Positions 38,573 through 64,000 of a stretch of 64,000 nt of DNA are shown piece by piece. The notes beneath the pieces were generated by a model that saw only the letters and a program-made list of their open reading frames with translations, searched no databases and was not told where the DNA came from. Source of the stretch: Pyrinomonadaceae bacterium (GTDB lineage: Bacteria > Acidobacteriota > Blastocatellia > Pyrinomonadales > Pyrinomonadaceae); assembly GCA_030841085.1 (NCBI GenBank), contig JAVEDP010000012.1, positions 1 through 64,000 on the forward strand, written 5' to 3'. Each line of letters opens with the position of its first letter. The stretch's first letter is position 1. The position numbers and the translations under genes were made by a program.

Positions 38573-41500
38573 ATGCCAAAGCGAAACAAAACTAATATGA
38601 AAAACACCCGACCTGTGAAAGCAACGTTGCACCAAAAAGCGCTGCGACTGCGTTCGCTGTTTATTTTCATGGCGCTGGCGATCGCGGCCTGCTCCTCTTT
38701 GTTTCTCTTTAACACTCAGGCAGCGAACCCGGCCGGGGGCAGCATCGGTCCGACGATCGGCGGCCCGCCAGTTACCTGGGTCGGTGATGTAGTCGGCACG
38801 GGAGCAGAGGGCGGCGAAGATCAGTGCATCGACAGTGGGCCGGCAAAGAACTGCGACAGCTTCGCGCTGACCGTAACCGGCACGCCGGCCGATTGGGTCA
38901 GCAAAGTTCTGCGAGTAAGAATCAACTGGACCCTCAGCGCGAACGACTATGACGTTTACATTCACAAGGGTGACTTGACTGGTCCAGTCGTGGGCAAGGG
39001 GCCCGGCAGCAGCCAGCCGAATCTTGAAGAAATTGCCTTTCTCAATCCATACAACGACGGCGTCGGACTCTACACCGTGCACGTTGCGTACGCGGCCGTG
39101 GCGCCGAATTCAGATCAATATCACGGCACCGCATCTGTCATTCCCGGCGTCGCGCCTGGCGTTCAGGGAACCGGTCTGGCCCCGAGATTTCAAAATTTCT
39201 ATCCACAGCCGGATCTGATCAAAACGGGCAAAGGGACTGACGCCGGCGAACCTTCCTTAGGCGTTAACTGGAAAACCGGCAGGGTGATGTTCATCTCGTA
39301 CCTTACGACGTTGCGCGTCAGTTTCGATGATTCATGTCCCACCACACCCATCTCGACCTGGCTGGACAAGAGCGCGCCGAATTCTCAGGACAGTCTCGAT
39401 CCAATTCTTTTCACTGATCACGGCTATAACAATGCCGTCCCCGAAACGGGACGAACAATCGTTTCGCAGTTGACTGGGCAGGACAGCCTTTCTTCATACA
39501 CAGATGACGATGGCGACACATGGGTTCCCAGTCAGGGTGGCGGCATTCCTTCGGGGGTGGACCACCAAAGCATTGGCGCTGGTCCATTCCACGCTCCGCT
39601 CATCGGAACGGCTTATCCCCATGCTGTTTATTATTGTTCTCAGGACATCGTCGCCGCGGCGTTCTGCGCGCGAAGCGATGACGGCGGCTTAACCTTTGGG
39701 CCAGGCGTGCCGATCTACACAACTGAATGCGTCGGCATACACGGACACACGAAAATTGGACCCGACGGCACTGTCTACGTGCCCAACAGAGACTGCGCCG
39801 GTAATGAAGCGGCCGTCGTTTCTGAAGACAATGGCATGACCTGGAGCATCCGCCCGATCCCCGGCACGATTAGTTCGAGCGGCGATCCAGCGATAGCAAT
39901 TGGTCGCGGCGACATCGTAAAGACGCCGCTCGACAACAAGCCTATCGGTCGAGTCTACGAAGCATTTGCCGGCGGCGACAGCATCGCTGGTGTGGCAGTT
40001 TCAGATGATCGTGGTCTGACCTGGAAAAATGGTTTTGATGTTGGCAGTCTGGTGGGCATAAAGGCTGTCGCCTTTCCCACCATTGTTGCCGGTGACGATA
40101 ACCGCGCGTCGTTTGCATTTCTCGGTTCGACGACCGGTGGAACTCCCGACGCTAAAGATTTCGCAGGCGTTTGGCATCTTTACATTGCTAACACCTATGA
40201 CGGCGGCGCTACGTGGCTGGTGTCTGATGCCACGCCTAACGATCCCGTTCAACGCAATGGAATTCACCTCGGTGGCGGCTCACCTCCGCACCGCAACTTA
40301 CTCGACTTCATTGGCATTGATATCGATAAGGAGGGACGTGTGCTCGTTGCTTACGCCGACGGCTGTACTGGCGACGGCTGCGTTCAAGGGACAACTTCGT
40401 CCATTGGAAACTCGTACACCGACGTGGCGGCAATCGCGCGGCAAACCGGCGGCAGAAGATTGTTCGCTGCGAACGATCCAGCAGAGCCAACAGTACCCGG
40501 CGCGCCTTTATTAACGGTTGGCCGCGATGGCAGCGTGGCCCATCTGACCTGGTCGGAGTCAGACAATGGCGGGTCAGCGATAACGAACTACACCATCTCC
40601 CGAGGCACCGCGAGCGGAGGGGAAACATTTCTTGCGAATGCGGGCACGGCAAACAGTTACGAGGATACAACCGCGAACCCGGCGATTACTTATTACTACA
40701 AGGTAAGCGCTACGAGTTCTTTGGGATCGTCATGCGGCAGCAATGAAGTGCAGTCTCAACCAATAGGCGATTCACAATGCGCCGGCTTAAGAGAAGTGGT
40801 GGATCCGGCGGGCGACCAGAAGAGTGCGCCGGCTAATGCCGACCTTGATGTGCTGGAAGTGCGCCTCGCTGATTATGTCGACACTGGCAACAAGATCGTT
40901 TTCAAGTTAAAGGTCGCCGACCTCAGCGTGCTTCAGCCGAACCGCCAATGGCGCATCATTTGGAACTATCCGATTCGCGCGGCAAATATCGCAGTCGCCG
41001 ACTTTACCGGCACTTACTATGTCGGCATGAACACAGACGGTTCGAGCGTATCCACGTTTGAATACGGCACAGTGACCACTGTCGAAGCCGTTCCCGCTAA
41101 CACCAGTACGCCACACAGAATCGGTGACGCTGACAGCGGATCGATTGATCAAGCAACGGGTACGATTTCGATTGTACTTTCCTCGAACAAGATCGGCGGA
41201 CCGGTTGCCGGTGATGTAATCGGGGCGCTCGTCGGGCGCACCTTTGCCGGTAATGGCAATCAAACGGTGTTATCAAGTTCTGCCGCCGATACGACGAGCA
41301 GGGCCATTCAAGATCCATATACCGGCAACAGCTACAGGCTGGTCGGAAACAGCCCCTGCTCGGCCGCGACACCGACGCCGACGCCGACGCCAACACCATC
41401 GCCGAGCCCGTCGCCGTCACCAAGTCCGTCGCCGTCACCGAGCCCGTCGCCGTCACCAAGTCCGTCACCATCACCAAGTCCATCACCATCGCCGAGCCCA

Positions 41501-42799
41501 TCGGCATCACCGAGCCCGTCACCCGGGACGACCGTGCAGTTTAGTCAGACTACGTATGCGGTGACGGAAGGGTGTGTGCAGACGGTGATTACTGTGACGC
41601 GTACTGGGCCAACCGGTCTTCCCAGCGTGGTTGACTACGTCGTTAACAATGCCACGGCTACGCAACGAGGCGACTTTACCTATGCTGCGGGTTCAGTGGT
41701 TTTCGCTGCGGGCGAAACGAGCAAAACTTTTCCCGTCCTAATCAGCGAGGACGGCTATGCGGAGGGAACTGAATCGGCGACGGCGCAGTTAAGCAATCCT
41801 TCCGGAGCGACGCTGGGCACGCCGAACGCCGCATCGATCCAGATTCAGGATAACGATACGCTGGCGGTGGAACTCAATCCGATAGACAATGCGGCAACGT
41901 TCGTGGGCCAGCACTATCACGATTTCCTCAACCGCCAGGCTGATTCCCAAGGTCAGGCTTTTTGGACCAACGAGATAACGTCGTGCGGTACCAATGCGTC
42001 CTGCATCGATGAGAAGCGGACCAACGTGTCGGCGGCGTTCTTCCTGTCAATCGAATTTCAGAACACGGGCTACTTCGCTTTCCGGTTTTACCGCGCTTCA
42101 TTCGTTAACACTGCGCAGCGCCCGCGCGGCCTGCCGCGATATTTGGAATTCCTGCGCGACGAGCAGACGCTGCAACGCAATGTTGTGGTTGGACAAGATA
42201 ATTGGGAAGCAAACCTGGAACAGAACAAGCAAGGGTTCGCGCTGGACTGGGTGGACCGTGCGGACTTTGTTGCGGAATATCCGACTTCGCTGACGCGTGA
42301 CGAGTTCATCGACAAACTGTTCAGCCGTTCGGCTGCGACGCCCAGCACGCAGGAACGAAACCAGGCTGTCTTCGCATACGACAGCGGCTTCAGTCTAAAA
42401 GAGAAGCGTGCGAAAGGATTAAGGGCAGTGATCGATACTGGCGCGGTTTATAACGCGCAGTACAACCCGGCGTTTGTGTTGATGCAGTACTTCGGGTACC
42501 TGAGAAGGAATCCGAACAATGCGCCCGATGGCGACTATGCCGGCTACGATTTCTGGCTCACTAAGATGAATCAATTCAGTCAGCCCGGTGAAGACGTGCG
42601 CGACGCGAACGTAGCGTTGGCCCGCGTGCGGCGCGCAGACATGGTCAAGGCGTTCATCGTATCGGGCGAATACCGCGGTCGCTTTGGCGGTGACTCCACA
42701 CGCGGCCAGCAATTTGGATCCGTCGCGCTGGCGAAGCCGCCGGAAAACTGGGGCCACGACATGCTGGCAAACCTGGTCTGGCTTGTCCGTTTGGTTTGA
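38573..42799 (+). CDS. Large exported Asp-box protein with Fn3, Calx-beta and DUF4214 domains
   Basis: 1408 residues from ATG 38573, with TGGAGG 4-9 nt upstream. Signal peptide at about 26-50 (cleavage near TQA-A). A beta-rich N-terminal domain is followed by a sialidase-type propeller region, about 200-640, with Asp boxes SDDGGLTFG, SEDNGMTWS, SDDRGLTWK and YDGGATW. An Fn3 domain lies at about 643-730. After a second beta domain there is a Thr-Pro/Ser-Pro linker (931-984), a Calx-beta domain (about 985-1100) and DUF4214 (about 1105-1390, with GQHYHDFLNRQ). No catalytic sialidase triad could be assigned. Likely surface-attached or secreted; substrate unknown. Confidence 0.85.
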   Translation: MPKRNKTNMKNTRPVKATLHQKALRLRSLFIFMALAIAACSSLFLFNTQAANPAGGSIGPTIGGPPVTWVGDVVGTGAEGGEDQCIDSGPAKNCDSFALTVTGTPADWVSKVLRVRINWTLSANDYDVYIHKGDLTGPVVGKGPGSSQPNLEEIAFLNPYNDGVGLYTVHVAYAAVAPNSDQYHGTASVIPGVAPGVQGTGLAPRFQNFYPQPDLIKTGKGTDAGEPSLGVNWKTGRVMFISYLTTLRVSFDDSCPTTPISTWLDKSAPNSQDSLDPILFTDHGYNNAVPETGRTIVSQLTGQDSLSSYTDDDGDTWVPSQGGGIPSGVDHQSIGAGPFHAPLIGTAYPHAVYYCSQDIVAAAFCARSDDGGLTFGPGVPIYTTECVGIHGHTKIGPDGTVYVPNRDCAGNEAAVVSEDNGMTWSIRPIPGTISSSGDPAIAIGRGDIVKTPLDNKPIGRVYEAFAGGDSIAGVAVSDDRGLTWKNGFDVGSLVGIKAVAFPTIVAGDDNRASFAFLGSTTGGTPDAKDFAGVWHLYIANTYDGGATWLVSDATPNDPVQRNGIHLGGGSPPHRNLLDFIGIDIDKEGRVLVAYADGCTGDGCVQGTTSSIGNSYTDVAAIARQTGGRRLFAANDPAEPTVPGAPLLTVGRDGSVAHLTWSESDNGGSAITNYTISRGTASGGETFLANAGTANSYEDTTANPAITYYYKVSATSSLGSSCGSNEVQSQPIGDSQCAGLREVVDPAGDQKSAPANADLDVLEVRLADYVDTGNKIVFKLKVADLSVLQPNRQWRIIWNYPIRAANIAVADFTGTYYVGMNTDGSSVSTFEYGTVTTVEAVPANTSTPHRIGDADSGSIDQATGTISIVLSSNKIGGPVAGDVIGALVGRTFAGNGNQTVLSSSAADTTSRAIQDPYTGNSYRLVGNSPCSAATPTPTPTPTPSPSPSPSPSPSPSPSPSPSPSPSPSPSPSPSPSPSASPSPSPGTTVQFSQTTYAVTEGCVQTVITVTRTGPTGLPSVVDYVVNNATATQRGDFTYAAGSVVFAAGETSKTFPVLISEDGYAEGTESATAQLSNPSGATLGTPNAASIQIQDNDTLAVELNPIDNAATFVGQHYHDFLNRQADSQGQAFWTNEITSCGTNASCIDEKRTNVSAAFFLSIEFQNTGYFAFRFYRASFVNTAQRPRGLPRYLEFLRDEQTLQRNVVVGQDNWEANLEQNKQGFALDWVDRADFVAEYPTSLTRDEFIDKLFSRSAATPSTQERNQAVFAYDSGFSLKEKRAKGLRAVIDTGAVYNAQYNPAFVLMQYFGYLRRNPNNAPDGDYAGYDFWLTKMNQFSQPGEDVRDANVALARVRRADMVKAFIVSGEYRGRFGGDSTRGQQFGSVALAKPPENWGHDMLANLVWLVRLV
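41366..41525. repeat. Coding microsatellite for Thr-Pro/Ser-Pro linker
   Basis: Tandem 6-bp units (CCGACG, then CCGTCA/CCGAGC/CCATCA) coding for TP and SP dipeptides. Length is expected to vary between strains. Confidence 0.8.
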
Positions 42800-42838: not shown

Positions 42839-45800
42839 GTGAAACATCTACTTAGCACACTGCAAGGTCGAGACGTCGAGTTGAAGGGCCGTCTCATTAT
42901 CTTCTCGGCGTTAATCCTCATCGCTTTAATTGGCGCTACGATATTGGCAGTCTTCCCGACGCAGCATGTGACGGCTGCCAATCCACCTTCAGGCGCCATC
43001 GCCCCGACTGGTCCAGTGCTCCCGTTCACCGGAAGTTGGACCGGGACGGCAAGCGGAACGGGCGCCAACGCGACTGAAGTTGACTGCGTCGAAGGCGTTA
43101 GTTGCGATACTTTCCGACTTACCGTTGTCCCTGGCGTATGGACCGCAAAAATTATCAACGCGAAGATTCAATGGACGGTTCCTGCCAACGACTACGATCT
43201 CTACGTTCACAAATGTCCAAGCGGCGCGTCCACCAATGCGCAATGTAATGCCACGCCCACGGTCGGGGAATCTCACGGCGGCGCGCCGCAGACAGAAGAG
43301 GATTCCGCGATCGATCCCAACAACACGGGAACCGGCGACTACACGCTTCACGTTGTCTATTCGGCCGTTACCCCGGCTGCCGACCAATACCAGGGGACCG
43401 TTAGCGTTGCTTCGCAAACTGCCGGACGGACAGCCACGTACGTAACCGGTGGAATAACTTTTAGCCCCAGTGTTACGGCGAGAGCGCCGGTGGCGCCGCG
43501 TGACGGCGAGCCGAGCAATCGCACCGACAAGCTGGGAAATTTTTATATCGCAGGCATCCGCGGATTTCCGGCGGGCGTCGATCTCTGGTACGTCGATCTG
43601 CAGCCGGGCAGCGGCAGCTACGATCCATTCATGCGCAATCCGATCTACCGCGGACAACCTGATGCGTTTAGTCCGGATGATCAAGCGGACCTCGGCGGCG
43701 ATGGCGGCGGCGACGTCGACCTCGCGGTTAGCATGCCTGATCCGACGACGAATGCGCTGCCCAGTCCACCAACTCTTGCTTCTTCCAGTTTGATCGCTGC
43801 GAATATTTCGGCGCAAAAATCCACCGACAAAGGCGTCACCTTTACGAGAAATAATGTTGGCAACGTAACCGGCGGAGCGCCCGCGGACGACAGGCAATGG
43901 GAAGAGTTTCACGGGCAGAATACTGTCTATCTGCTTTATCGCACTCTTGCGCCCGCTGTTACCCAAATTCAACGCTCGACCGATGGCGGCTTGACCTTTG
44001 GTCCAGCGCAAACGGCCGGCGCGATCGGACAAGTTGGTTACATCGACGTGCATCAGAAGACCGGAACGGTTTACATCAGCGGCTCGACCGGCCAGGTTTG
44101 CCATAGCACAGTCGTGCTTCCAACGGGCGAGGCCGCTGTGTATCAATGCGTACAAGCAGCAACCGATCCCAGCGGCGTGGGCCACCTCTTTTTCCCGGTC
44201 AAGGTAGCGGACGACGGCACGCCGAACGGCACTGTCTATGTTCCTTACTCAAACGGCCACGACATCTTCCTGGTCCATTCCACAGATAAAGGCGTGACCT
44301 GGAGCTTGCCTATCCGTGTCAGCAATGGTCCGGACACAAAGACGAGTTTGTTCCCGTGGTTAGAAACTGGCTCGACGCCTGGCTCGGTTGGCATCGTCTG
44401 GTACGGCTCATCGAGCGCGACGAATGACGACAACGCCAACTGGGAAGTGTTCTTTGCACAAAGTTTCAACGCCACCGCCAACAATCCGACCTTCAGGCAG
44501 GTGAAGGTAAGCGACCACATTATCCATGGCAGTAACGTTTCCGAAGGCGGTCTGTGCGTCGCTCCGGTAATGCAGTGCAAGAATCGCAACTTGATCGACT
44601 ATTTCCAGATTTCATTCGATCCCACCGGCGCCGCCGTCGTCGGCTACACCGATGACCACAACGATTTCGACGGTCATGTTTATCTCGCGCGTCAGATTAG
44701 TGGCGAATCCATCCTCGGTGGAAAGGCGCCGGTGCCGAATCCTGGACCGACGCCGGCGCCGGCGACTGGGCCACAACCATCGGCAGCCAGCGTAGGCGGC
44801 ATACCTGGATCGCAGGTGACTGACTTTGCGCAGGACGCTGCAACTGGTCGCGGCTTGACGAGAATCAACGCTAACGATCCGTTCGACATCCTTTCGGTCA
44901 AATATGATTGCGAGGTTGGCCCAGGCGGCGAGACTGTAATCAGCGCGACGATGAAAGTGTCAGATCTAACGGTTGTGCCCGCGGGCTCGGATTGGCGGAT
45001 GAATTTCACCGCTAACGCGCCTTTCAGCGGCATCAGTCCGGTTGGAGACTACAGCTTTGCGCTGTCCGATCGCGGCGACAATTTTTATCTGCGCGCCAGT
45101 ACCGAAACGAATCCTGCCGGCACGTTCACCTATGGCACGGCGGTGCGGGGTTCTGACGGCGCATTTACTTATACCGATCGCGGTCCAGCAGATTGCGGCG
45201 CGTTCGATACTACGAATAAAACAATCACCGTCAAGGTCGCAGTCAGCAAGCTCAATTCGCTGGTCACCAAAGGCCCAGGCATAGGCCCGGGTTCGGTGCT
45301 CAGCGGTTTGCGTGGTTCGACGTTCACCGCCTCCAGCGACGGGCGGCGCGACATCACTCGCGGCGGCACGGAATTCGTGGTCGGCAATTGTTCGACGGTG
45401 ACTTCGGTTTCGTGTGCGACGGCTTCGCCGACGCCTTCGCCGTCACCGACGCCTTCGCCATCACCAACACCTTCGCCGACTTCAACCTTCCAGTTCAGCT
45501 CGGCGGCTTATGCCGTGCAGGAAGATGTTACGCAGGTCGTGGTAACAGTGACCCGGACTGGTGTTATTACTTCGCCGGCGACCGTTGACTATACAAGTGT
45601 GGACGGCACGGCCAAGCAGAAAGGCGATTACATCTACGCAACCGGAAGACTAGTGTTTGCAGCCGGCGACACACAGAAAACGTTCCCGGTCCTCATTAAC
45701 GAAGACAGTTACACTGAAGGCGCAGAGTCTGCGACGATCATTCTGAGTAATCCATCAGGCGGAACGACGTTGGGCGCACCGGCGACGGCCACAGTCCAAA

Positions 45801-46765
45801 TTACGGACGATACTGTCGAGTCCAGCGGAAATCCGATTGACGATCCGCGTGGTTTTGTTGGTCAGCATTACCACGACTTCCTTAATCGCCAGAGCGATCA
45901 GTCAGGCGAGGATTTCTGGACCAACCAAATCGCGAGCTGCGGAAGCAACGCCGCATGTATCGATGAAAAGAGAACGAACGTCTCGGCCGCGTTCTTCCTT
46001 TCCATCGAATTCCAGAACACCGGCTATCTGGTCATTCGCACTCACAAGGCAGCGTTTGGAAGCGACAAGAGCAATCCGCGCTACACCGTTTTCCTGCGCG
46101 ACCAGCGAACCATCAGCAACGGAGTCGTCATTGGGCAACCCGGAGCTGACGCCCAACTGGAACAGAACAAAGTCGGTTTCTTCCAGGAATTCGTGCAGCG
46201 TCCGGAGTTTGTCACCCGCTTTCCGGTGGGCACTCCGGCTGCGACTTATGTCGATGGGCTTTTTGCCAACGCGTCCGTGACGCCAACTACCGCTGAGCGA
46301 AATGCGGCCATAAGCGCGTACAGCAGCGGTGACACGAACGGGCGTGCGGCGGCGCTGCGCAGTGTCGCCGACAGCAATTCTGTTTACCAAAAGCAGTACA
46401 ACCCTGCGTTTGTCTTAATGGAATACTATGGCTACCTGCGGCGCAATCCGGACGATGCGCCTGACAATAACTTCTCAGGTTACGACTTCTGGCTAAACAA
46501 GATGGACCAGTTTAGTCAGCCCGGAGAGGACGTGCGAAACGACAGCGTCGCCCTTGGACGCGTAAAGCGCGCGGAGATGGTCAAGGCGTTCATCGTTTCC
46601 AGCGAATACCGCGAACGTTTTGCCGGCAGTCCAACCGGTAATCAAAACGGCGCGGCAGTCGAGACAGAGACGAGTCAGAAAGGCGGCACGAGCGGCGGTC
46701 TTTTTGCCGGCGCTTTACGAGAGGGCGCAAGGCAAATAATTCGGACCGTGTTCTTCACTGGCTAG
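42839..46765 (+). CDS. Large exported Asp-box protein with Calx-beta and DUF4214 domains
   Basis: 1308 residues, GTG start at 42839 with AAAGGACAAGGGA upstream. An N-terminal hydrophobic segment (LIIFSALILIALIGATILAVF, about 19-39) and TAA-N suggest a signal peptide. The N-terminal domain matches that of the gene at 38573 (DYDLYVHK; DYDVYIHK there). Asp boxes STDKGVTF, STDGGLTFG, STDKGVTWS mark the propeller. A short Thr-Pro/Ser-Pro linker (about 860-882), Calx-beta (about 885-985) and DUF4214 (about 990-1270, HDFLNRQSDQSGEDFW) follow. It lies 39 nt after its neighbour and is probably a tandem paralogue without the Fn3 domain. Confidence 0.85.
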   Translation: MKHLLSTLQGRDVELKGRLIIFSALILIALIGATILAVFPTQHVTAANPPSGAIAPTGPVLPFTGSWTGTASGTGANATEVDCVEGVSCDTFRLTVVPGVWTAKIINAKIQWTVPANDYDLYVHKCPSGASTNAQCNATPTVGESHGGAPQTEEDSAIDPNNTGTGDYTLHVVYSAVTPAADQYQGTVSVASQTAGRTATYVTGGITFSPSVTARAPVAPRDGEPSNRTDKLGNFYIAGIRGFPAGVDLWYVDLQPGSGSYDPFMRNPIYRGQPDAFSPDDQADLGGDGGGDVDLAVSMPDPTTNALPSPPTLASSSLIAANISAQKSTDKGVTFTRNNVGNVTGGAPADDRQWEEFHGQNTVYLLYRTLAPAVTQIQRSTDGGLTFGPAQTAGAIGQVGYIDVHQKTGTVYISGSTGQVCHSTVVLPTGEAAVYQCVQAATDPSGVGHLFFPVKVADDGTPNGTVYVPYSNGHDIFLVHSTDKGVTWSLPIRVSNGPDTKTSLFPWLETGSTPGSVGIVWYGSSSATNDDNANWEVFFAQSFNATANNPTFRQVKVSDHIIHGSNVSEGGLCVAPVMQCKNRNLIDYFQISFDPTGAAVVGYTDDHNDFDGHVYLARQISGESILGGKAPVPNPGPTPAPATGPQPSAASVGGIPGSQVTDFAQDAATGRGLTRINANDPFDILSVKYDCEVGPGGETVISATMKVSDLTVVPAGSDWRMNFTANAPFSGISPVGDYSFALSDRGDNFYLRASTETNPAGTFTYGTAVRGSDGAFTYTDRGPADCGAFDTTNKTITVKVAVSKLNSLVTKGPGIGPGSVLSGLRGSTFTASSDGRRDITRGGTEFVVGNCSTVTSVSCATASPTPSPSPTPSPSPTPSPTSTFQFSSAAYAVQEDVTQVVVTVTRTGVITSPATVDYTSVDGTAKQKGDYIYATGRLVFAAGDTQKTFPVLINEDSYTEGAESATIILSNPSGGTTLGAPATATVQITDDTVESSGNPIDDPRGFVGQHYHDFLNRQSDQSGEDFWTNQIASCGSNAACIDEKRTNVSAAFFLSIEFQNTGYLVIRTHKAAFGSDKSNPRYTVFLRDQRTISNGVVIGQPGADAQLEQNKVGFFQEFVQRPEFVTRFPVGTPAATYVDGLFANASVTPTTAERNAAISAYSSGDTNGRAAALRSVADSNSVYQKQYNPAFVLMEYYGYLRRNPDDAPDNNFSGYDFWLNKMDQFSQPGEDVRNDSVALGRVKRAEMVKAFIVSSEYRERFAGSPTGNQNGAAVETETSQKGGTSGGLFAGALREGARQIIRTVFFTG

Positions 46766-53007: not shown

Positions 53008-53045
53008 CAAAAAAATAGAGGCGAGCAATGCTCGCCTCTTTTTTC
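53008..53045. terminator. Bidirectional rho-independent terminator
   Basis: Stem 53017-53026/53030-53039 (AGAGGCGAGC) with an A-run before and a T-run after, so it can stop transcription from both sides. It separates the + strand gene at 52101 from the - strand operon. Nothing else is seen in 52857-53110. Confidence 0.88.
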
Positions 53046-53110: not shown

Positions 53111-56100
53111 TCACGGTTTTATCAACTGCACAGTTACCGTGTTGAGCAGCGGGTTGTACAGCACTTTGAAGACTATGCCCGTCGCTGTGCCGGCAGTTCC
53201 CGAAAGAGTGGTTGAACCGGGCGGGCTACTGCCGCCCGTCTGAGCGCTGCTGGATGAAGTGTTCGCACTCGCGCTGCTCGAACTGCTCGAACCGCTACGG
53301 GCCAGGTTGCCAATCACATTGAAGGTCACGGTGAACGCTTCATTGTTGGGATTGTTGAATTTCAGAGAGCGTGCCCCTGAAAGCTCACTGGCGGAAAGCA
53401 TGTTGTCGGCGCCGACATAGCTGCTGTAATCCCAAAGCGCTCCTATTCCCGTCTGACCGTTATCGCCATTGTTCACTTTGACCTTGCCGGACGCTGAAGT
53501 CAGTTGTGCAACTTCCGTCCGCAAGGGAACGAAGATGGTTTGCGTTGAAGTGTTCTTGATCGCCAGGTTAAACGAGCTGACCCCCGAGACCGAACCAGCA
53601 TTGCTGACCTGCAAACTGACCAGCGAATTAACGATCTGCTCGATGAATGGTGAGCAATCGATATTGCCGACAATCGTGTAAGTCGCCGCCGGATAACTAT
53701 TGTCAGTCTGCGCTTTGACGAACGTGTGGTCGACGAACAGGTTCGAACGCTCTAGTTTGCTTTCAGGTGTCCCGGGAACATCTGAGGTGAATGTTCGTCC
53801 GTTAACGGCGCCTAAGAGGTCGCCGGGTTGCGGATTGCCAACCGCAGATTTCGGCACATAGATCGTGATCGTGCCGTCGCCGGTGAAATTACTTTCAGCC
53901 AGCGCGTTTCCTTGTTTGGTTTCCGAGATGGCGTACACCGCCGGCAGGCCGGCATCGGCCAATGTTCCGTATTCGAATGTCGGCGCCCCGCTTGGCCCGG
54001 TTGTCATGCCGACATAGAACTGTTGCGCATGGGGATCGATCGCTTCTGCCGCGAATGAGTTCCAGGCAATTCTCCAACGGCTGTTCGCGGGAATGCTCGC
54101 CAGGCTGTTCACCTTCATCTTGAGCATCAGATTATTGGTGCCCGCAGGTTCGCCGACCGCGACGTAATCGATCAGCATAGAAGCCGGCGTGTTCAATCCC
54201 AGGTTGGCTTCGGGATGATTGGGTTCATTGCGGTGGACAATGAGTCCGCTGCACGTGTCTCCCAGGTAAGGTGCGGCAACTTCATTGGCGCCGCACGAGG
54301 CGCCGGCAGCATTCACAGCCAACACCTTGTAGTAGTAAGTTTTGCTCGTATCGGTTGCAGTCGTATCGTCATATCCCGACTGAGTTCCCGAAATGTTGGT
54401 CAACAGAGTTTCGCCGCCGCTGGCGGTGCCTCTCATGATCTTGTAGCCGGTGATTTGCGAGTTGCCATTATCGGCCTCAGACCAGCCGAGATGGACCACG
54501 TTGCCGACGCGACGCGCGGTGACTGAAGGATTACCTGGCTTCGAGATCGCGCTCTGCGAATTCGGCCCAATCAGTCTTCGCCCACTGGATTGACGGGCGA
54601 TTGTCGCCGCTGCCGTATAGGCATTGCCTTTTGCGCTTGGCGCTGCCTGCGCGCAATTTCCGCCTTCGCAACCATTGACGTAACCAACCAGGACGCGGCC
54701 GTCCCGGTCCACAGTCATGTCAAAGAAATCCAACAGATTGCGACAGATACTCGCCCCGCCTTTGGCCCAAATACAACCACGCTGAATGGGCGCGTTTGGT
54801 GTTGCGTCCGTGGTGGTCCATGTCTGTCCACCGTCGAATGTGTTGGCGATGTAGAGATGCCATATGCCATCGAAGCTTGATTGCAGAGCATCGCCGGGTG
54901 TGGTCGTGCCGTAGAACGCGACGGACGCGCGACCTGCATCGCCGGCAATCGCTGCCGGGTATCTGATGTTCCGCAACCCATACGCCGCGCCGACATCGCC
55001 GACGTTTTGCCACGTTGCTCCATAATCGGTAGAAGTCAGTACAGCCGCGGCCGAATCGTCATCGGCGATCACGTAATAGACGCGGCCGTTGGCGTCGATT
55101 GCCACCGCCGGATCCTGGAAGCTTACCGACGGTTTGGTTTTGAGGTCGCCACTCTGCACCTGACGAACGGTCCAGGTGACTCCATTGTCCAGCGAGACAA
55201 TGACACTGCCGACCCCGTTACAATAATTCACTGGTAGATACACCGCGCCATCTTTCGGCGAGACTTTCACGTGGCCGTGTAAGCCGCTGCACTGAGTCGA
55301 CAACGGAACTGAAACGGGTACTGACGGCCCGAATGTCAATCCGCCGTCGTCACTGCGCGAGCAGAAACCGGTGTCGTCATCGCCTTCCTGTGAACAATAG
55401 TAAACAGCATTCGGATAAAGGCCCGGTACGTTCGTGGGCCTCGTCAGCGGCGCTGCGAATGGGCCACCGCCAATCGTTTCGTGATCTACAGCGGACGCGA
55501 TGCCGCTGCCTTGTGTCGGCGTCCAGTGCAGACCGTCGTCGTCGGTAAACGAAGTCTTGCAGGACGGCGACAGAAGGGTGAGTGCGCCCGCGAAGGTCCG
55601 GCCAGTTTGCGGATCGGTGAATCCGATAGGATCCGAATTCACGGCTTGTGAAGTCGTTCCCTGACGATTGACCCACGTTGAAGTTTGTCCGTTTGAAGGA
55701 CAACTGTCATCGAAGGTGACGAACAGCGTCTGCAGGTCGGATTGATAACTCGTAACGCCGCTCTTCCAGTTGTTGCCGATGGAAGGTTCACCGGCGCTGC
55801 GGCCCAGGTATTCGACCGAGTTGGGTTGTTGACCAGCCGAGGTAATCAGGGTTGGAGTCAGCAAGCCCGGTGCGGTGAAATTTTCAAATCCAATCTTTGG
55901 ACCAGTGTCTTGATTGGCAGGCGGGATTACCCGAGGCGTCGGCGTTGGCGTGGGACTCGGACTCGGCGCTGCGCTCCCGCCGACGGTGGTTGTAAAAGTT
56001 CCGGTATAAGTGAAAGGCGCATTCTGCGGCACGCCGGACGTGTTTGGCGTCTGGCAGATTTGCACCTGGTATTCGCCCGGTGGCACTTGGCCGGTCGGCG

Positions 56101-59100
56101 CATACCGAAGAGCTTCGCAGCAGGTTCCCGTGTCCTCACCTTTAACCAACACTGCGTTAGGATCGGAACCAAACAGCAGATTGACGCTGATATCGTTGGC
56201 AGGAACCGTGGCATTCACCTGAACAACGATGCTCGATTTTCCCGGGCCGACCGTGAAGCGATTTTTCGCGGAAGCGCACGGGTATGCGTGCGGGTCATAG
56301 GCGCCCTGAATCACGTTAGTGCCATCACCTGAGGGCGGCGGCGGAGGCGTACCCGTCGACGTTACGTGAATCAGAACCTGCGCTGGATTGGTGCTGACGT
56401 GCCCTCCCGAGTCCGTCACCGTCAATCGAGCCGTGTAATCTCCGGCGTTGTTGTAGGTGTGACTAAACGCGGGTGACGATTGAGTAACTGTTGAGCTGCC
56501 ATCTCCAAAATCAATCGTGTAGGACGCAATGGTGTTACATGATTGTGGATTGCTCGACGCGGAAGCATCGAAATTGACCGTCAACGGAACGGCACCGGAG
56601 GTTGGATTAGCAATGAGACTGGCGTTGGGCACACCTGTGCCACACGACGTATTGCCTACTCTGGTGTACTCCTCGCCGCTGGTCGTTTGGACTGTCTCCA
56701 AAAATCCTCGGGTGGCTCCGGCCAAAACGTAGGTTGTTCCGGTGATCACCTGCGCTGTGCCGATGTCCGTGCCGACGGCGCCGCCGTCCCAGGTAAAGGC
56801 GTTTCCGGTCGCGGGCGCGGCTGGCGCCGCAAAATTAATTGGGCTACCAAGATTAAGTTTAAGAATTACTGTGCCGTCCTTGTTGAAGTCAGCGCTAATC
56901 TGCGGGCACGCGGTCGTAGCATCGTTCGTGCAGACTCGCGTGTCCTGCGTACCGGTGGCCGTCGGATCACGCCGACCGATTGAAGTGCGCGGCTTGACCA
57001 CGAAGTCTGGTGAGAACGTATCCATTTCGATAAACACTCGCTGCGCATTGCCGGCGGTGTCCGTAACGCCAAACAGGATGTGCCACTCGGAATTCGGCGG
57101 CAACACCGCTGTTCCCGTATTTTGTGGATCGAGTGTGTTCACTTTCATTATGAAAGTAAGAGAGTTGTCGGCGCAGCTCGAGAAAGGCTCGCCTACATTT
57201 AGTCGTTGGATCGTCAGTTCGCCGCCCGTCGGGTCCACTGGCACGGTTCCCGAGATGCCCTCGCCACCTACGGTGATGTAGGGATAGAGGCACGAACTCT
57301 CAAAAGTAACAACGACTGGAACGACATCAGCGCTGTATGGTCCTTCGCCGAACTCATTGACGGCCGTGACTCGATACGCGTTGCTGGTCGCCGGCGCTGG
57401 GAAAGTAGTGTCGGAGAAACTGGTGCCGGCAACAGTCCCGGCTAAATTAAATGAACCAGTGGCGCCGTCTCTTCGATATACGTTGTAAGAGGTGATTGGC
57501 GAGCCGGCATCGTCAGCAGCAGGCCATGACACAACAGTAGGACCGCCGTTGCTGCTAATTTGCGCTTTGGGTCTGGGAGCACTTGGCAAATTCGGCTCAG
57601 CCGGGTCGAAGGCGATAAACAAACGACGACCGCCTGACTGGCGCGCTATCGACGCGCGTGATGTATAAGAATTTGGGAAGTTGCCACTCGGCCTGGTAGC
57701 ACAACGTCCCACGCAACCATCCGGATAGCCGACCAGAGTTCGCCCCTGCGCATCCACCGTGGCATCCATAAAGTCGAGCAGATTGCGATCGTTCGGATTG
57801 TGCCCGTTGCAACTGGTAGTGCCCAGGTTGCAAATCGAGCCGCGTTGCACCGGATCATTCGGTGTTGCGTCGGCCGTGGTCCAAGTCGCGCCGCCATCGA
57901 ACGTGGTGGCGATGTAAAGATGCCAGGGCGCGCTTTGATTGTAGGTAGCCTGGTTCGTGTAGTTACCGCCGACGGGCGTTCCCAGGAAGGCATAGGCCGC
58001 ACGATTGTCGTCGCCCGCAACTACTTCCGGGAATGTTGAGTTCACAATTCCAAACGTAGTCCCAACATCCTGGTCATTAATCCAGGTAGCGCCCTGGTCG
58101 TGGGAAACTGCAATGCGCGGATGACTGTCAGCAGCCTGATACCCGAGATAGATCGTGTTGCTTGCCTGGCCGTTTGCCTTGCCCACATTGTTCAAGCCGA
58201 TACCAACCGACGGGTCAACCAGGAAACCTGTGCCGCTGCTGGCCGGGTCGGGTCGAACCGACCAGGTGACACCGTTGTCGTTTGAAACAACAACTGCTGC
58301 TTTGCCGCCGCAACTTCTATTTGGGACATAGACACTGCCATCGGGCGCGACTTTCACGTGCCCGTGGATTCCCGTGCATTGAAGAATCTGATAGATGGGA
58401 ACGCCCGGGCCAAACGTCTGCCCGCCGTCATCGCTGCGCGCGCAGAACGCGGTGGCAGCTTCCTGGGAACAATAATAAACGGCGTTCGGATAACTGGAAC
58501 GTGGCGCTGCCGCAGGTGTGGTGTTGGGCTTATATGGACCAGCACCAATTGTTTGATGATCGACGCCGGAAGGAATGCCGCCCCCCTGGCTCGGCGAATA
58601 TGACCCGCCATCGTCATCGGTGAAGAAGGTAATGCTGTCCTGCCCGGTCAATTGTGAAACAAACGTTCGATTCGGCATGCCTGAGGGCAGCATATGATCC
58701 GTGAATAGAATTGGATCGAGAGAAGTGGCCGACGGAATGATCGTATTTGTCCACGTATCTTTTGCCGGTGATGAAGAGTCGTCAAAGCTAATGCGAACGG
58801 GGTTGAAATTCGCCAGGTACATCGCGTTACCGGTTACCCAGTTCGTTCCGATTGACGGTTCGCCGCCGCTGAAGGAACTGGCCGGAACGTAAACCTGAAA
58901 TCTTGGTACGCCCGCCCCGGCCGAAGGCGTCGGAGTAGCGGTCGCAGTCGGTGTCGGTGTAGGTGTTGAGTTCGGATCGACCACCGGCATCGTCACGGTC
59001 GAATCGCAGGGACCCTCAGTAGCTCCCGGACAGGGCAATGACGAATCGTAGTAGATCTTTGTATTTTCCTGCGTATCGGAGTAGACCGGATCGATCACCA

Positions 59101-59698
59101 GAACCCAGCGGTTGTCCGCAGTGATGTTCGCAGGGATATTCACTGTCGCCGAAAGCAGAGCCGGTACATTGGGCGTGGCAGGCGTTGGACCGACGATGTG
59201 TTGCGTGAACTTCTTGGTTCCATCTGCCCAAAGTGATATGTCCCATTCAGCATCAAAAACGCCGGGAACGCAGGCACCGCATATTGCCCACCATTGAATA
59301 GGCATGGCACCTCTCAAGGTTGTCGATGTACCACCAAGATTCCAAACCCAATTCGGATCGACCGGGCTGCGTTCAACATTCTGGTCCGACGCGGAGGTTG
59401 AATTCCAAATCGCGGCCGGGCCAGAGAACAGGGTTGCGCTCGGTTTCAAGAACGGCCCGCCGCAAGTTTCGAGGTCTGCGGGCGCGCCGGCGCAAGGTGC
59501 GTTCTGAGGGCCGCCACTGTCATCCGGATTTCCATGAAAATGCAGCAGGGTTGGACCAAACAGCGGCGGCGGCGCTGCTTTCGAGATTGGTATCAGCAAG
59601 GCAATGGCAGTTCCCATTAGACACAGGGTAAGCATCAGAGCCAGCCTGAATCGACTATTTGTAAAAAAGCTGGATGCTAACTTGGCCTTGCTGAACAT
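53111..59698 (-). CDS. Giant exported protein with two Asp-box propellers, PKD domain and C-terminal module
   Basis: 2195 residues; ATG 59698 with AAAAAGGAGATAG upstream. Signal peptide at about 15-41 (cut near SKA-A). A Thr-Pro linker lies at about 241-258. The first propeller (about 265-700) has Asp boxes such as SDDGGQTFG and SNDNGVTWS, followed by an Fn3 domain (about 725-810). A PKD domain is at about 1019-1119 (VNFDASAS, YTIDFGDGSS). After a second Pro/Thr linker (about 1246) a second propeller (about 1270-1700) and a second Fn3 domain follow, so the protein contains an internal duplication. The C-terminal module (about 2013-2195) is shared with the two genes upstream. Function unknown. 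Confidence 0.86.
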   Translation of the reverse strand: MFSKAKLASSFFTNSRFRLALMLTLCLMGTAIALLIPISKAAPPPLFGPTLLHFHGNPDDSGGPQNAPCAGAPADLETCGGPFLKPSATLFSGPAAIWNSTSASDQNVERSPVDPNWVWNLGGTSTTLRGAMPIQWWAICGACVPGVFDAEWDISLWADGTKKFTQHIVGPTPATPNVPALLSATVNIPANITADNRWVLVIDPVYSDTQENTKIYYDSSLPCPGATEGPCDSTVTMPVVDPNSTPTPTPTATATPTPSAGAGVPRFQVYVPASSFSGGEPSIGTNWVTGNAMYLANFNPVRISFDDSSSPAKDTWTNTIIPSATSLDPILFTDHMLPSGMPNRTFVSQLTGQDSITFFTDDDGGSYSPSQGGGIPSGVDHQTIGAGPYKPNTTPAAAPRSSYPNAVYYCSQEAATAFCARSDDGGQTFGPGVPIYQILQCTGIHGHVKVAPDGSVYVPNRSCGGKAAVVVSNDNGVTWSVRPDPASSGTGFLVDPSVGIGLNNVGKANGQASNTIYLGYQAADSHPRIAVSHDQGATWINDQDVGTTFGIVNSTFPEVVAGDDNRAAYAFLGTPVGGNYTNQATYNQSAPWHLYIATTFDGGATWTTADATPNDPVQRGSICNLGTTSCNGHNPNDRNLLDFMDATVDAQGRTLVGYPDGCVGRCATRPSGNFPNSYTSRASIARQSGGRRLFIAFDPAEPNLPSAPRPKAQISSNGGPTVVSWPAADDAGSPITSYNVYRRDGATGSFNLAGTVAGTSFSDTTFPAPATSNAYRVTAVNEFGEGPYSADVVPVVVTFESSCLYPYITVGGEGISGTVPVDPTGGELTIQRLNVGEPFSSCADNSLTFIMKVNTLDPQNTGTAVLPPNSEWHILFGVTDTAGNAQRVFIEMDTFSPDFVVKPRTSIGRRDPTATGTQDTRVCTNDATTACPQISADFNKDGTVILKLNLGSPINFAAPAAPATGNAFTWDGGAVGTDIGTAQVITGTTYVLAGATRGFLETVQTTSGEEYTRVGNTSCGTGVPNASLIANPTSGAVPLTVNFDASASSNPQSCNTIASYTIDFGDGSSTVTQSSPAFSHTYNNAGDYTARLTVTDSGGHVSTNPAQVLIHVTSTGTPPPPPSGDGTNVIQGAYDPHAYPCASAKNRFTVGPGKSSIVVQVNATVPANDISVNLLFGSDPNAVLVKGEDTGTCCEALRYAPTGQVPPGEYQVQICQTPNTSGVPQNAPFTYTGTFTTTVGGSAAPSPSPTPTPTPRVIPPANQDTGPKIGFENFTAPGLLTPTLITSAGQQPNSVEYLGRSAGEPSIGNNWKSGVTSYQSDLQTLFVTFDDSCPSNGQTSTWVNRQGTTSQAVNSDPIGFTDPQTGRTFAGALTLLSPSCKTSFTDDDGLHWTPTQGSGIASAVDHETIGGGPFAAPLTRPTNVPGLYPNAVYYCSQEGDDDTGFCSRSDDGGLTFGPSVPVSVPLSTQCSGLHGHVKVSPKDGAVYLPVNYCNGVGSVIVSLDNGVTWTVRQVQSGDLKTKPSVSFQDPAVAIDANGRVYYVIADDDSAAAVLTSTDYGATWQNVGDVGAAYGLRNIRYPAAIAGDAGRASVAFYGTTTPGDALQSSFDGIWHLYIANTFDGGQTWTTTDATPNAPIQRGCIWAKGGASICRNLLDFFDMTVDRDGRVLVGYVNGCEGGNCAQAAPSAKGNAYTAAATIARQSSGRRLIGPNSQSAISKPGNPSVTARRVGNVVHLGWSEADNGNSQITGYKIMRGTASGGETLLTNISGTQSGYDDTTATDTSKTYYYKVLAVNAAGASCGANEVAAPYLGDTCSGLIVHRNEPNHPEANLGLNTPASMLIDYVAVGEPAGTNNLMLKMKVNSLASIPANSRWRIAWNSFAAEAIDPHAQQFYVGMTTGPSGAPTFEYGTLADAGLPAVYAISETKQGNALAESNFTGDGTITIYVPKSAVGNPQPGDLLGAVNGRTFTSDVPGTPESKLERSNLFVDHTFVKAQTDNSYPAATYTIVGNIDCSPFIEQIVNSLVSLQVSNAGSVSGVSSFNLAIKNTSTQTIFVPLRTEVAQLTSASGKVKVNNGDNGQTGIGALWDYSSYVGADNMLSASELSGARSLKFNNPNNEAFTVTFNVIGNLARSGSSSSSSASANTSSSSAQTGGSSPPGSTTLSGTAGTATGIVFKVLYNPLLNTVTVQLIKP

Positions 59699-59770
59699 TT
59701 TCTATCTCCTTTTTTCTAGTGGAGAAAAACCTGCCTCCAAACCTTTCATTCAATGCGCCCGCCGAAATTC

Positions 59771-62149
59771 TTACCGCGGGCCAATCAACTGGACCGTTAT
59801 CGAATTCAGGACGGGGTTGTAAGTTAATTGGTAAACCAAATTTGCCGCGCCGCTGATTGACGGCGATGAACTAGATGTACTGCTGCCACCGCTTCCTGCG
59901 CTGCCGCCACTACTTGAAGCTCCGCTTGGTGAGCAACAACTCGGGCCTGAGTAAGGCAAGTTGCCGAAGACGTTGAAAGTAACAGTGAACGACTCGTTGT
60001 TGGGGTTGCGGAATCTCAGCGAGCGCATGCCCGAAACTTCCGCAGCGGAAAGCGCGCTGTCGTTGCCAACCAGACTGTCGTAGCTCCAGTTCGCACCTGC
60101 GCCTGATAGCGAGTTATCAGCGTTGGCGACGGTGACGCGGCCCGAGGCTGAAGTGAGTTGCGCTACCTCAGCCCGTAATGGAGTGGAGATCGTCTGCGTC
60201 GATGTGTCCTTGATCGCCAGATTGAACGAGCTGATGCCGGATGCCGAAGCCGGATTGGTTACTTGCAGAGCAACCAGCGAATTCACGTTTTGTTCGGTGA
60301 GTCCTTTTGGATCAAACGCCGAGAAGAGACCGAGACCATTGGATTGGCGAGCGATGGTGGCCCATACCGATTTGGCGGTGTTAGCTGGACCGGTCGCGCA
60401 CGCTCCAGTGCAGCCGTCCGCGAACCCCACAAGCACACGACCCTGCGCGTCAATCGTGGCGTCCATAAAGTCGAGCAAGTTGCGACACGGATTACTGCCG
60501 CCGCCCAACCAGATGCACCCGCGCTGCGTCGGATCGCTCGTGGCTTTAACGGTCGTCCACGTTCTGCCTCCGTCGTACGTGTGCGCCACATATAGATTCC
60601 AGACGCCATTAAAGCTTGGATCCTGGAAAGTACCCGCTGTCGTACTTCCATGAAAAGCAAATGCGGCGCGGTCCGGGTCACCCGCGACCACTTCTGCAAA
60701 CGCCGCGTTCTGAATACCGAAAGGCGTCCCAACATCGATGAATGCCGCGGCGCCACGGTCAGAGTTCCAAGTGTCCCAGGTCGCCCCTTTATCATGTGAG
60801 ACGGCAATCTCGGGGTGGCCATCGCCATTCACGAAACCGAAATAAACGGTGCCATCAGTCGCGATGCCAATCGATGGATCACTCTCGCTGGGTCCGGTGT
60901 TCGGAATCGTTCGAATCGTCCAGGTAATGCCGTTGTCCGTTGAGACCGCCATGCCCTGCAGACCATCGCAGCCTCTATTCGGCACATATGCGGTGCCGTC
61001 AACGGGCGATACCTTTACGTGGCCATGGAGCCCGCCACACTCTGTGATCCACATCGGCACTGCGGGCCCAAAGGTCGTGCCGCCATCCAAACTAAGAGCG
61101 CAATTCGCGGGTCCCAAACCCTGTGCGCAGTAATAAAGTCCATTGGGATATGGAGCCGGCAGACTTGGATCGCGCGTTAATGGTGGCGCAAGCGGACCGC
61201 CGCCGATCGTTTGGTGATCGATGCCCGAGGCGAGTCCGGATCCCTGGCTGGGAAGAAATAAGTTGCCGTCATCGTCACTGTATTCCAGCGTCGAGAAGGG
61301 CGTCAGGCCCTCCAACTGATCGGCGAAGGTGCGGCCAGTTTGTGGATCGGTGAAAAGAATCGGATCCGCAGCGGCCCGAGGCGTGGTGGCAGTGTGTTGA
61401 TTCCCGCTGACATTGGTCCACGTGGCGGTCGGCGTTGCAGCCTGATCGTTGAAGTTGTTTATGCGAAATGTCTTGAGCGTGCCGCCGCCGGCAAACATCA
61501 CATTGCCCGTTTTCCAATTAACTCCGATCGAAGGCTCGCCGAAGCCGCTCGTGCACGTTTGGCCAACCGGGCAAGGAAAATTTGTGTAGCCAACGTTCGC
61601 TGTTCCCGCCGGCGCAGAGCCGCTCGGCGGTTGCGGCAGCAGTTGGGCAGTGGCGGCGTAACTATTTCCGTCGGATCCCACTACGGGCGAAAACGGGAAC
61701 GCAGCGATTCTGTAAGTGCCAGCCGGCGGATTAAACAGCACCACGACTTCATTCGCATACGCGCCATTGCCCGAGCTGGTCCGATATTTACCGTCGGGGT
61801 TGTAAAGCTCGAGGTCCCAGTCGCCCTGTGGCCGAAGCCGGATTTCGACAATGTAGGGACCAAAGCTCGCTGGCGGAGGTACAACAGTAAGACTAAAGTT
61901 GTCGCAGGGGTCCGCGCCGTTGCACCTGGGCGAAGTCAGCAGGTCGGGATCGGCGGCCATAATGGCGCCGCTCCAACTAACGAGCGGATTGGCTTCCGAA
62001 ACCGTGCCAGACGCAGGATTCGCGCCGCGCGTGATCGGAATGACTACAATGGCGACCGCCACCACCAGAACGCAAAGCAGCGCGGCCAACGCGTATCTCA
62101 ACCGCATGATCGCCGAAATTTTCCGTGTGTCTGCCAGCTTCCTCAACAT
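59771..62149 (-). CDS. Exported Asp-box protein with C-terminal module
   Basis: 792 residues; ATG 62149 after AAAAGGAGATTCGG. Signal peptide at about 18-42 (cut near RGA-N). N-terminal beta domain with WDLELYNPDGKYRTSS. One propeller region with Asp boxes (SLDGGTTFG, STDNGITWT, SHDKGATWD, TYDGGRTWT) at about 190-610. The C-terminal module (about 616-792) has SFNLAIKDTSTQTI, MRSLRFRNPNNESFTVTFNVFGN, a Ser-rich tract and the end YNPVLNSITVQLIGPR. Lies 72 nt upstream of the giant gene with no promoter between, so both are probably one transcript. Confidence 0.87.
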   Translation of the reverse strand: MLRKLADTRKISAIMRLRYALAALLCVLVVAVAIVVIPITRGANPASGTVSEANPLVSWSGAIMAADPDLLTSPRCNGADPCDNFSLTVVPPPASFGPYIVEIRLRPQGDWDLELYNPDGKYRTSSGNGAYANEVVVLFNPPAGTYRIAAFPFSPVVGSDGNSYAATAQLLPQPPSGSAPAGTANVGYTNFPCPVGQTCTSGFGEPSIGVNWKTGNVMFAGGGTLKTFRINNFNDQAATPTATWTNVSGNQHTATTPRAAADPILFTDPQTGRTFADQLEGLTPFSTLEYSDDDGNLFLPSQGSGLASGIDHQTIGGGPLAPPLTRDPSLPAPYPNGLYYCAQGLGPANCALSLDGGTTFGPAVPMWITECGGLHGHVKVSPVDGTAYVPNRGCDGLQGMAVSTDNGITWTIRTIPNTGPSESDPSIGIATDGTVYFGFVNGDGHPEIAVSHDKGATWDTWNSDRGAAAFIDVGTPFGIQNAAFAEVVAGDPDRAAFAFHGSTTAGTFQDPSFNGVWNLYVAHTYDGGRTWTTVKATSDPTQRGCIWLGGGSNPCRNLLDFMDATIDAQGRVLVGFADGCTGACATGPANTAKSVWATIARQSNGLGLFSAFDPKGLTEQNVNSLVALQVTNPASASGISSFNLAIKDTSTQTISTPLRAEVAQLTSASGRVTVANADNSLSGAGANWSYDSLVGNDSALSAAEVSGMRSLRFRNPNNESFTVTFNVFGNLPYSGPSCCSPSGASSSGGSAGSGGSSTSSSSPSISGAANLVYQLTYNPVLNSITVQLIGPR

Positions 62150-62234
62150 TTCCGAATCTCCTTTTGGCTATCGTGAACTTGTCTCGGATTCCTCGTCTTC
62201 GACTTACTACGCGTTCCGTCATCAACATGCCGAC

Positions 62235-62265
62235 AAGGCCAGGCAGAACCGATCTGCCTGGCCTT
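62235..62265. other. Stable hairpin between subtilase and Asp-box gene
   Basis: Perfect 13-bp stem 62235-62247/62253-62265 with a 5-nt loop. On the - strand it follows the subtilase stop, but no T-run comes after it. It may be a processing or stabilising hairpin or a weak terminator. Confidence 0.65.
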
Positions 62266-62281
62266 CGGAGTGCTCGACGCC

Positions 62282-64000
62282 TTATTGCAACCTGATGAGT
62301 TGCGACGTAACTGTCTTGGTTAACGGATTAACCGTGAAGCGCATCACGGCCGTGATTTTGGTTAGCGGTAACGCGCCTGTCGGCAGAACTCCGCTCGAAC
62401 TCGAAGACTGCGAGCCGCCCGATGAAGATGACGAACTCGAGCTGGACGATCCGCCAGTCCCAATATATGCGGTCGCCTGGACATCCCAGCTAAACATTTC
62501 TGAGAAGCTATCCTGGAACCGCACTGTTCGTGAGCCGGTAGTTTCGGCGGGACTGAATAGCTGATCGGAACCCAGCTTCTGGGTAAAGCTGAACAGCGCC
62601 GCGTTTGTCGGACTGGTTCCGTTCTTGCCGTTGTCAGCATTGATGACCCGCACGTTCGGCGAGCTGAGCCCGATAACATTGAAGTCAACAAACGGCAGGT
62701 AAGTATTCGTCGCGTTGTTGATTAGGTTGACATCCTGCTGCCAGACTCCGCCGGTGAATGAGACGTTCGAGATGGGATAGCTAACCAGGCTGGTGATATC
62801 GACCTTGTTGCGCTGATCCACGAGCACGCTGACAACGTTGCTTGGTTCAGTTACGAACAAACCAATTTGTCCGGGATCGATTGCGCGGACGCGGAAGTAA
62901 TACGCTCCGTTGCCTTGGTTGCTCAACGAGTAGCTATTAGTCGAGCCGTTAACGTCGGCGAGGAAGTCCCAGTTCTCATTGTCGGTGGACTTCTCGATTT
63001 CGAAGCCCTGCTCGCCGCCCTTCGGCGTCCAGTTGAGCGTGAACGTGCCATCGAAATCGACGTGATTCCCCTGGCTGTCAACAAAGTCGCCCGGAATTGT
63101 TTGCACCGTGGGCGGCAAGTCGCTGCCCTTGAACTGTGAGCTCGTTAGCGTGAAGTTCTCATTGGCGGCTAGAAATCCGTCCACTCGATACGTGTAATCT
63201 CCCGCAGGAAGATTGGTTGCGGTAATGTGCTCCGGCCCGCCGGGCTGTGTCGAAGACGTGACTACATTGCCGTCCGAATCCAGCAGGTAGAAATCGAGAT
63301 CGGCGAATGTGCCGTTCACCACCTGCATAAAGTCGAGCGTCGCATCGAGCTTGAACGTGGTGTTGTCGATTCGGAACGGAATGTCAACGTAGTCTGCGCC
63401 GTCGGCAAGTTCGGCGTTGTTGCTGCCTACTAGCACCGTGCCCGTGTACGGTGTGGTATCCACCGACGAGACCCCAGGTTGTGAAGAGACTGGTTTGTAG
63501 TAGAACGGCATGCGCAGGCTCTCGCCGCCGTCGTTACGCTGCGCCGTCACATACCATTGCATTTCGATCGGGCGCGTAGTGTAGGTGACCTGATTGCCGT
63601 TAACAGTCGCAACGGAAGTATTCGGATCGCGAATCAGGTTACCGTCAAAGGTCGCATTAACTGTGAAAGTAGCTGAGCCGCCGGCCGGCACAGTCACGCT
63701 CGATGGCGACGTGGTCACAGTGATACCGGCGATTTCCAGATCCTGATTGTGGGCCACACCCAGGTTGTAGGTTCCGCCCTGACCCGAAAGATCCTGGACC
63801 GTAACCGTGACGCTTTGAGTGCTCGTCACGCGATTGTTCGCGACCGGGACTTCACCGTACGAATGACTGCCGAGAATTGATGGCGCAGTGATGCCGTCTC
63901 CAGCTTCACCCATCAAGGCTTTTAGGTTTGCTGCGTGGTAAACGTCGATGAGACCGCCGCCTTGCGCGATGATCGTATCGGCGCCCTCCGCCTTCGCGGC
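62282..64000 (-). CDS. Subtilase (S8 family), C-terminal part, cut by window edge
   Basis: 572 residues are visible and the frame is open to the window edge, so the start lies outside; a TTG at 63916 is not the start. The first residues IIAQGGGLIDVYHAANLKALMG are the typical end of the S8 peptidase domain. Then come an Ig-like region (TVTVQDLSGQGGTYNLGV), a domain of pre-peptidase type (LDFYLLDSDGNVVTSS, PAGDYTYRVDGF), an Fn3-like domain (FTLNWTPKGGEQGFEIEKSTDN), and the shared C-terminal module with a Ser-rich tract ending KTVTSQLIRLQ. The catalytic residues are outside the window. Confidence 0.85.
   Translation of the reverse strand, partial: AAKAEGADTIIAQGGGLIDVYHAANLKALMGEAGDGITAPSILGSHSYGEVPVANNRVTSTQSVTVTVQDLSGQGGTYNLGVAHNQDLEIAGITVTTSPSSVTVPAGGSATFTVNATFDGNLIRDPNTSVATVNGNQVTYTTRPIEMQWYVTAQRNDGGESLRMPFYYKPVSSQPGVSSVDTTPYTGTVLVGSNNAELADGADYVDIPFRIDNTTFKLDATLDFMQVVNGTFADLDFYLLDSDGNVVTSSTQPGGPEHITATNLPAGDYTYRVDGFLAANENFTLTSSQFKGSDLPPTVQTIPGDFVDSQGNHVDFDGTFTLNWTPKGGEQGFEIEKSTDNENWDFLADVNGSTNSYSLSNQGNGAYYFRVRAIDPGQIGLFVTEPSNVVSVLVDQRNKVDITSLVSYPISNVSFTGGVWQQDVNLINNATNTYLPFVDFNVIGLSSPNVRVINADNGKNGTSPTNAALFSFTQKLGSDQLFSPAETTGSRTVRFQDSFSEMFSWDVQATAYIGTGGSSSSSSSSSSGGSQSSSSSGVLPTGALPLTKITAVMRFTVNPLTKTVTSQLIRLQ

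Follow-up and report, generated by a model that had tools for sequence, protein, structure and literature searches.

The stretch of DNA analysed here (the window) comprises the initial 64,000 nucleotides of a contig of 84.5 kb. Towards its end, three minus-strand genes lie head to tail, separated by gaps of 72 and 132 bases (Table 1). Two of these encode BNR-repeat proteins, and the third encodes an S8 subtilase and extends past the window end, with a contig span of 62282–66187. A hydrophobic signal-like segment is present at the N-terminus of each of the three products. Two plus-strand genes for exported proteins that end in DUF4214 lie in the same window. They are followed by a gene for a DsbA-like thioredoxin (47005–47667) and, directly after it, a gene for an SMC chromosome-segregation ATPase (47993–51841, plus strand).

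Table 1. Positions of the features in the window
Feature	Position	Strand
Protein with BNR body homologous to both tail-bearing BNR proteins, C-terminal Calx-beta and DUF4214	38468..42799	+
Second exported Calx-beta and DUF4214 protein, without module or tail	42839..46765	+
Terminator-like site closing the three-gene array, perfect 10-bp stem, T-run on each side	53017..53039	
Exported 2195-aa giant protein: two BNR-repeat bodies, PKD, fn3, then module, linker and tail	53111..59698	-
Giant protein, terminal tail IVFKVLYNPLLNTVTVQLIKP	53114..53176	-
Giant protein, Ser/Gly/Thr-rich linker (from sequence; the corresponding subtilase linker is disordered in AF2)	53177..53308	-
Giant protein, Ig-like module	53309..53641	-
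Exported 792-aa BNR-repeat protein with C-terminal module, linker and tail	59771..62149	-
792-aa protein, terminal tail LVYQLTYNPVLNSITVQLIGPR	59774..59839	-
792-aa protein, Ser/Gly-rich linker	59840..59962	-
792-aa protein, Ig-like module	59963..60295	-
S8 subtilase gene, 3' part in window: S8 catalytic, PA, PPC, fn3, then module, linker and tail	62282..64000	-
Subtilase, terminal tail AVMRFTVNPLTKTVTSQLIRLQ, predicted beta-hairpin	62285..62350	-
Subtilase, Ser-rich linker, mostly disordered in the AF2 model	62351..62467	-
Subtilase, Ig-like module	62468..62806	-

The common C-terminal region and its exchange with DUF4214

About 175 C-terminal residues are common to the two BNR-repeat proteins and the subtilase, and comprise an Ig-like module, a Ser/Gly linker and a terminal hairpin with the motif [RK]FTVNPLTK.VT.QL or YNPLLN.VTVQLI. 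An end-to-end alignment of the last 177 residues of the giant protein and the subtilase has 31% identity (single-comparison E 6e-14), and the giant protein is 61% identical to the 792-residue protein in the same region. This bears out the original prediction of a common C-terminal layout in three neighbouring exported proteins, with tails that lie where they were placed, read as quoted and can be aligned. Of the R[ST][LV][KR]F...F...FNV-like stretch described for the module, the "FNV" part is missing from the subtilase (SRTVRFQDSFSEMFSWDVQATAY).

Modelled by AF2 from 13 sequences, the C-terminal part of the subtilase has a module in the form of a seven-strand Ig-like sandwich (pLDDT ~90), a linker that is mostly below 50, and a terminal hairpin that reaches 85–87. 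Searches of Pfam, NCBIfam and PDB sequences with the C-terminal region gave no relevant family match, and literature searches found no account of it. Foldseek matched the module to Ig-like, CARDB-like and TRAP-alpha-like beta-sandwiches, with a best E of 5e-4 and, among the 50 matches listed, TM values (by query length) that do not exceed 0.37, a likeness of generic fold only.

The BNR body of one plus-strand DUF4214 protein is ~40–44% identical to those of the tail-bearing proteins, and the match breaks off at most ~5 residues from the start of the shared module. This stop at the module boundary shows that the C-terminal end was exchanged. The suggestion that the opposite-strand proteins lack the element and use DUF4214 instead thus holds, in that the related BNR body there bears DUF4214, an alternative C-terminus of unrelated sequence. 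DUF4214 (PF13946) is present in 39 domain copies in the source genome, compared with 3 copies of the element. Many of the DUF4214 matches are in tandem on two contigs of this genome (C17 and C41).

Carrier proteins, distribution and gene neighbourhoods

The module and tail are found on unrelated bodies: S8 subtilases, M36 fungalysin-type metallopeptidases with an FTP propeptide, and BNR/Vps10-like proteins, with Pfam matches above cut-off to M36 (PF02128) and S8 (PF00082). In the M36 carriers, a PPC-like domain lies between module and tail and the tail is still last, which means that the module can sit internally while the tail stays terminal. A profile built from S8 tails alone recovered 21 of 21 M36 tails at iE<=0.01, and its matches in 313 ORFs were all C-terminal and none internal. 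Conversely, the profile from M36 tails recovered 17 of 22 S8 tails, all C-terminal. The full tail profile gave one match in shuffled proteins; with the 20-position tail profile, true matches have E values of at most 4e-3, and noise lies at 0.04 or above. Mean identity between S8 and M36 proteins is 34% for the module and 51% for the tail, as compared with 47–53% and 53–57%, respectively, within classes. The BNR tails (YNPLLN) constitute a separate subtype that the S8- and M36-trained profiles miss at iE<=0.01, and their probable link to the S8 and M36 tails rests on the common module and the three-protein C-terminal alignment. The original prediction would have been refuted by matches confined to close paralogues of the same full-length proteins or by a mostly internal module. 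The bodies found are of S8, M36 and BNR type, and the module is internal in the M36 proteins, so neither applies in full.

In 145 relatives, 50 of 50 strong module matches are on tail-bearing proteins, if a few frameshifted or degraded tails are counted. An intact protein with the tail and without the Ig-like module was not found in the relatives, and the sole module-less tail (G016) is a degraded 52-aa remnant. Frameshifted or degraded ends occur in tail or module genes at L065, L047, L041 and L046/L061, which suggests that some genomes have undergone decay or contain errors of MAG assembly. The marginal tail matches G299 and G701 and the weak module matches L179–L181 were rejected as unrelated ORFs or remote internal Ig-like domains; L179, L180 and L181 are tail-less, with a remote relative of the module inside otherwise unrelated exported proteins.

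In the source genome, the C-terminal profile matches just three proteins, all in the one tandem array. The element is present in 26–27 of the 145 relatives' genomes, and 9 of 396 genomes matched in an even phylum draw, including one marginal match that proved false. It is sporadic among soil Acidobacteriota, in Pyrinomonadaceae and one other Blastocatellia family, and, outside the phylum, in three marine Gammaproteobacteria (Pleionea, Cognaticolwellia and Colwellia); Cognaticolwellia and Pleionea have one tail-bearing S8 and one tail-bearing M36 protein apiece. Two surveys of Gammaproteobacteria found the element to be rare; one of them, of 274, gave one real and one false match. Tail copies number 1–4 per genome, and some genomes have a single tail-bearing protein. 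The two-part element is real and apparently undescribed, sporadic in occurrence and low in copy number.

Two gene arrangements recur. One is the S8-BNR(-BNR)-M36 array; in the other, a tail gene of the M36 or S8 class lies beside subtilases that have SLH repeats (PF00395) or a different region at the C-terminus. Of the 20 Blastocatellia M36 tail genes, 17 lie next to SLH-subtilase genes; near the three-gene array in the window, an SLH subtilase is absent. Among 87 genomes, SLH-subtilase orthologues (at least 53% identity) and the tail occur together in 13, the SLH subtilase only in 4, the tail only in 2 and neither in 68, but given the linkage and common descent of the genes, this co-occurrence is an association and not proof of partnership. 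At L062, L066, L067, L081, L082, L086 and other loci, M36 or S8 genes with the tail are flanked, in many cases on either side, by subtilases with PPC and SLH domains, and a further type of subtilase at these loci has a different end.

Comparison with known sorting signals

The element had been predicted not to match type IX CTDs or PEP-CTERM, and this proved correct: the three window proteins gave no matches to NCBIfam Por/T9SS sorting-domain models at E<=1, and none to PEP-CTERM, GlyGly-CTERM, MYXO-CTERM or LPXTG models. SprA of the T9SS was matched in 0 of 15 genomes, a search in which the control genomes likewise went unmatched and that therefore has no positive control. Like the T9SS CTD, the element provides unrelated exported enzymes, M36 and S8 peptidases among them, with a beta-rich module towards the C-terminus. 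It differs in that the terminal position is taken by a separate hairpin, and the Ig-like module can lie internally. The CTERM signals of exosortase, rhombosortase and myxosortase systems are similar in being short conserved C-termini on diverse exported proteins. They differ in having a signature motif, a transmembrane segment and a basic end; 48 tails showed no hydrophobic helix within their final 60 residues, where the highest 19-aa hydropathy is 1.32. The NCBI models name M36 enzymes as T9SS-, rhombosortase- and myxosortase-dependent, and the M36 carriers have sub-cut-off, whole-enzyme M36 matches only to these models. This naming implies that M36 enzymes commonly have a C-terminal sorting signal particular to their lineage, which makes a targeting or assembly role in trans plausible for the present element.

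A co-occurring dedicated transpeptidase or secretion system, proposed as a check, did not emerge. Transpeptidase-like genes were not found next to tail genes in the neighbourhoods of tail loci, and a dedicated receptor, transpeptidase or secretion gene for the element was not identified. GspD-like secretins are present in 23 of 23 genomes, with or without the tail, and full-score GspD occurs only in the two Gammaproteobacteria among them; a T2SS link was rejected because the secretins are present irrespective of the tail. The proposal of a sorting, secretion or anchoring signal is accordingly upheld in part. A common, strictly terminal end on unrelated enzymes, retained even where the module is internal, is as expected for a sorting signal. 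Independence from the adjacent domain would be expected too, but the tail always occurs with the module in the same protein, and unlike PEP-CTERM-type signals it is never seen on an intact protein that lacks the module. The three copies in one array, the patchy distribution and the failure to find a dedicated partner gene also count against the proposal.

Possible roles of the element

Sequence comparison shows the sharing of the element, its strictly terminal position, its separability in M36 proteins, its linkage to SLH subtilases and its swapping with DUF4214. On these grounds we propose, at close to an even chance, that it serves a cassette of surface proteases as a C-terminal element for targeting or assembly and is recognised in trans. 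The proteins would be exported first, via the N-terminal signal peptide, and the linker would hold the amphipathic hairpin clear of the enzyme. A shared component of the surface or outer membrane, or else a partner from the cassette, could then recognise the hairpin in trans and thereby retain or assemble the enzymes at the cell surface. Recognition in trans is favoured by several features: the tail is strictly last on bodies that are unrelated, it is conserved between phyla while the linker next to it varies, C-terminal ends are interchanged, and the genes are linked to that of an anchored protease. To our knowledge, the surface placement of hydrolases by Acidobacteriota has been little studied, and a short transferable C-terminal tag in two protease families and a BNR family, accompanied by a defined gene cassette with SLH-anchored subtilases, would offer a first handle on it. 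A more specific version seems unlikely: that Pyrinomonadaceae have an undescribed route for outer-membrane secretion or surface attachment, that module and hairpin together mark its substrates, and that a few marine Gammaproteobacteria received this signal along with S8 and M36 proteases or were the source of both.

The strongest point against a free-standing signal is the obligate pairing of tail and module, which keeps docking in cis and cassette assembly as candidates. The low copy number and patchy distribution, the absence of an SLH subtilase near the array in the window and the separate subtype of the BNR tails also weigh against recognition in trans. The main rival to recognition in trans, possible but rather doubtful, is structural: the hairpin may fold back in cis and pack against the Ig-like module of its own protein or a neighbouring domain, with the Ser/Gly tract as a long loop, and stabilise the protein with no role in sorting. 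Besides the obligate pairing in relatives, this would account for a hairpin predicted with high local confidence beside a disordered linker, and an amphipathic hairpin should require a packing surface. The module by itself, however, already comprises seven strands in the AF2 model, tail identity between S8 and M36 proteins does not drop alongside module identity, and remote relatives of the module exist without a tail. In the M36 proteins, moreover, the PPC-like domain intervenes, and tail confidence is ~70 in an AF2 model that is weaker as a whole.

The constant association of module and tail is also what a plug and socket would show, and several genomes have S8, BNR and M36 tail genes in tandem, as if the hairpin of one cassette protein docked on the module of another to form an extracellular S8, M36 and BNR complex. 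We regard such a complex as decidedly unlikely. When compared with the RSLRF-NP-FTV hairpin of the module itself, the tail scored no better than shuffled sequences and so is not a repeat of it, and where a genome has a single tail-bearing protein, only homotypic assembly could take place. Finally, the tandem arrays, and ends that are highly alike within an array, might reflect inheritance only, in which a C-terminal block that has no special function was recently shuffled between adjacent genes. This explanation is disfavoured as very improbable, since the terminal residues, unlike the linker next to them, are conserved between Acidobacteriota and Gammaproteobacteria, which implies selection on the tail.
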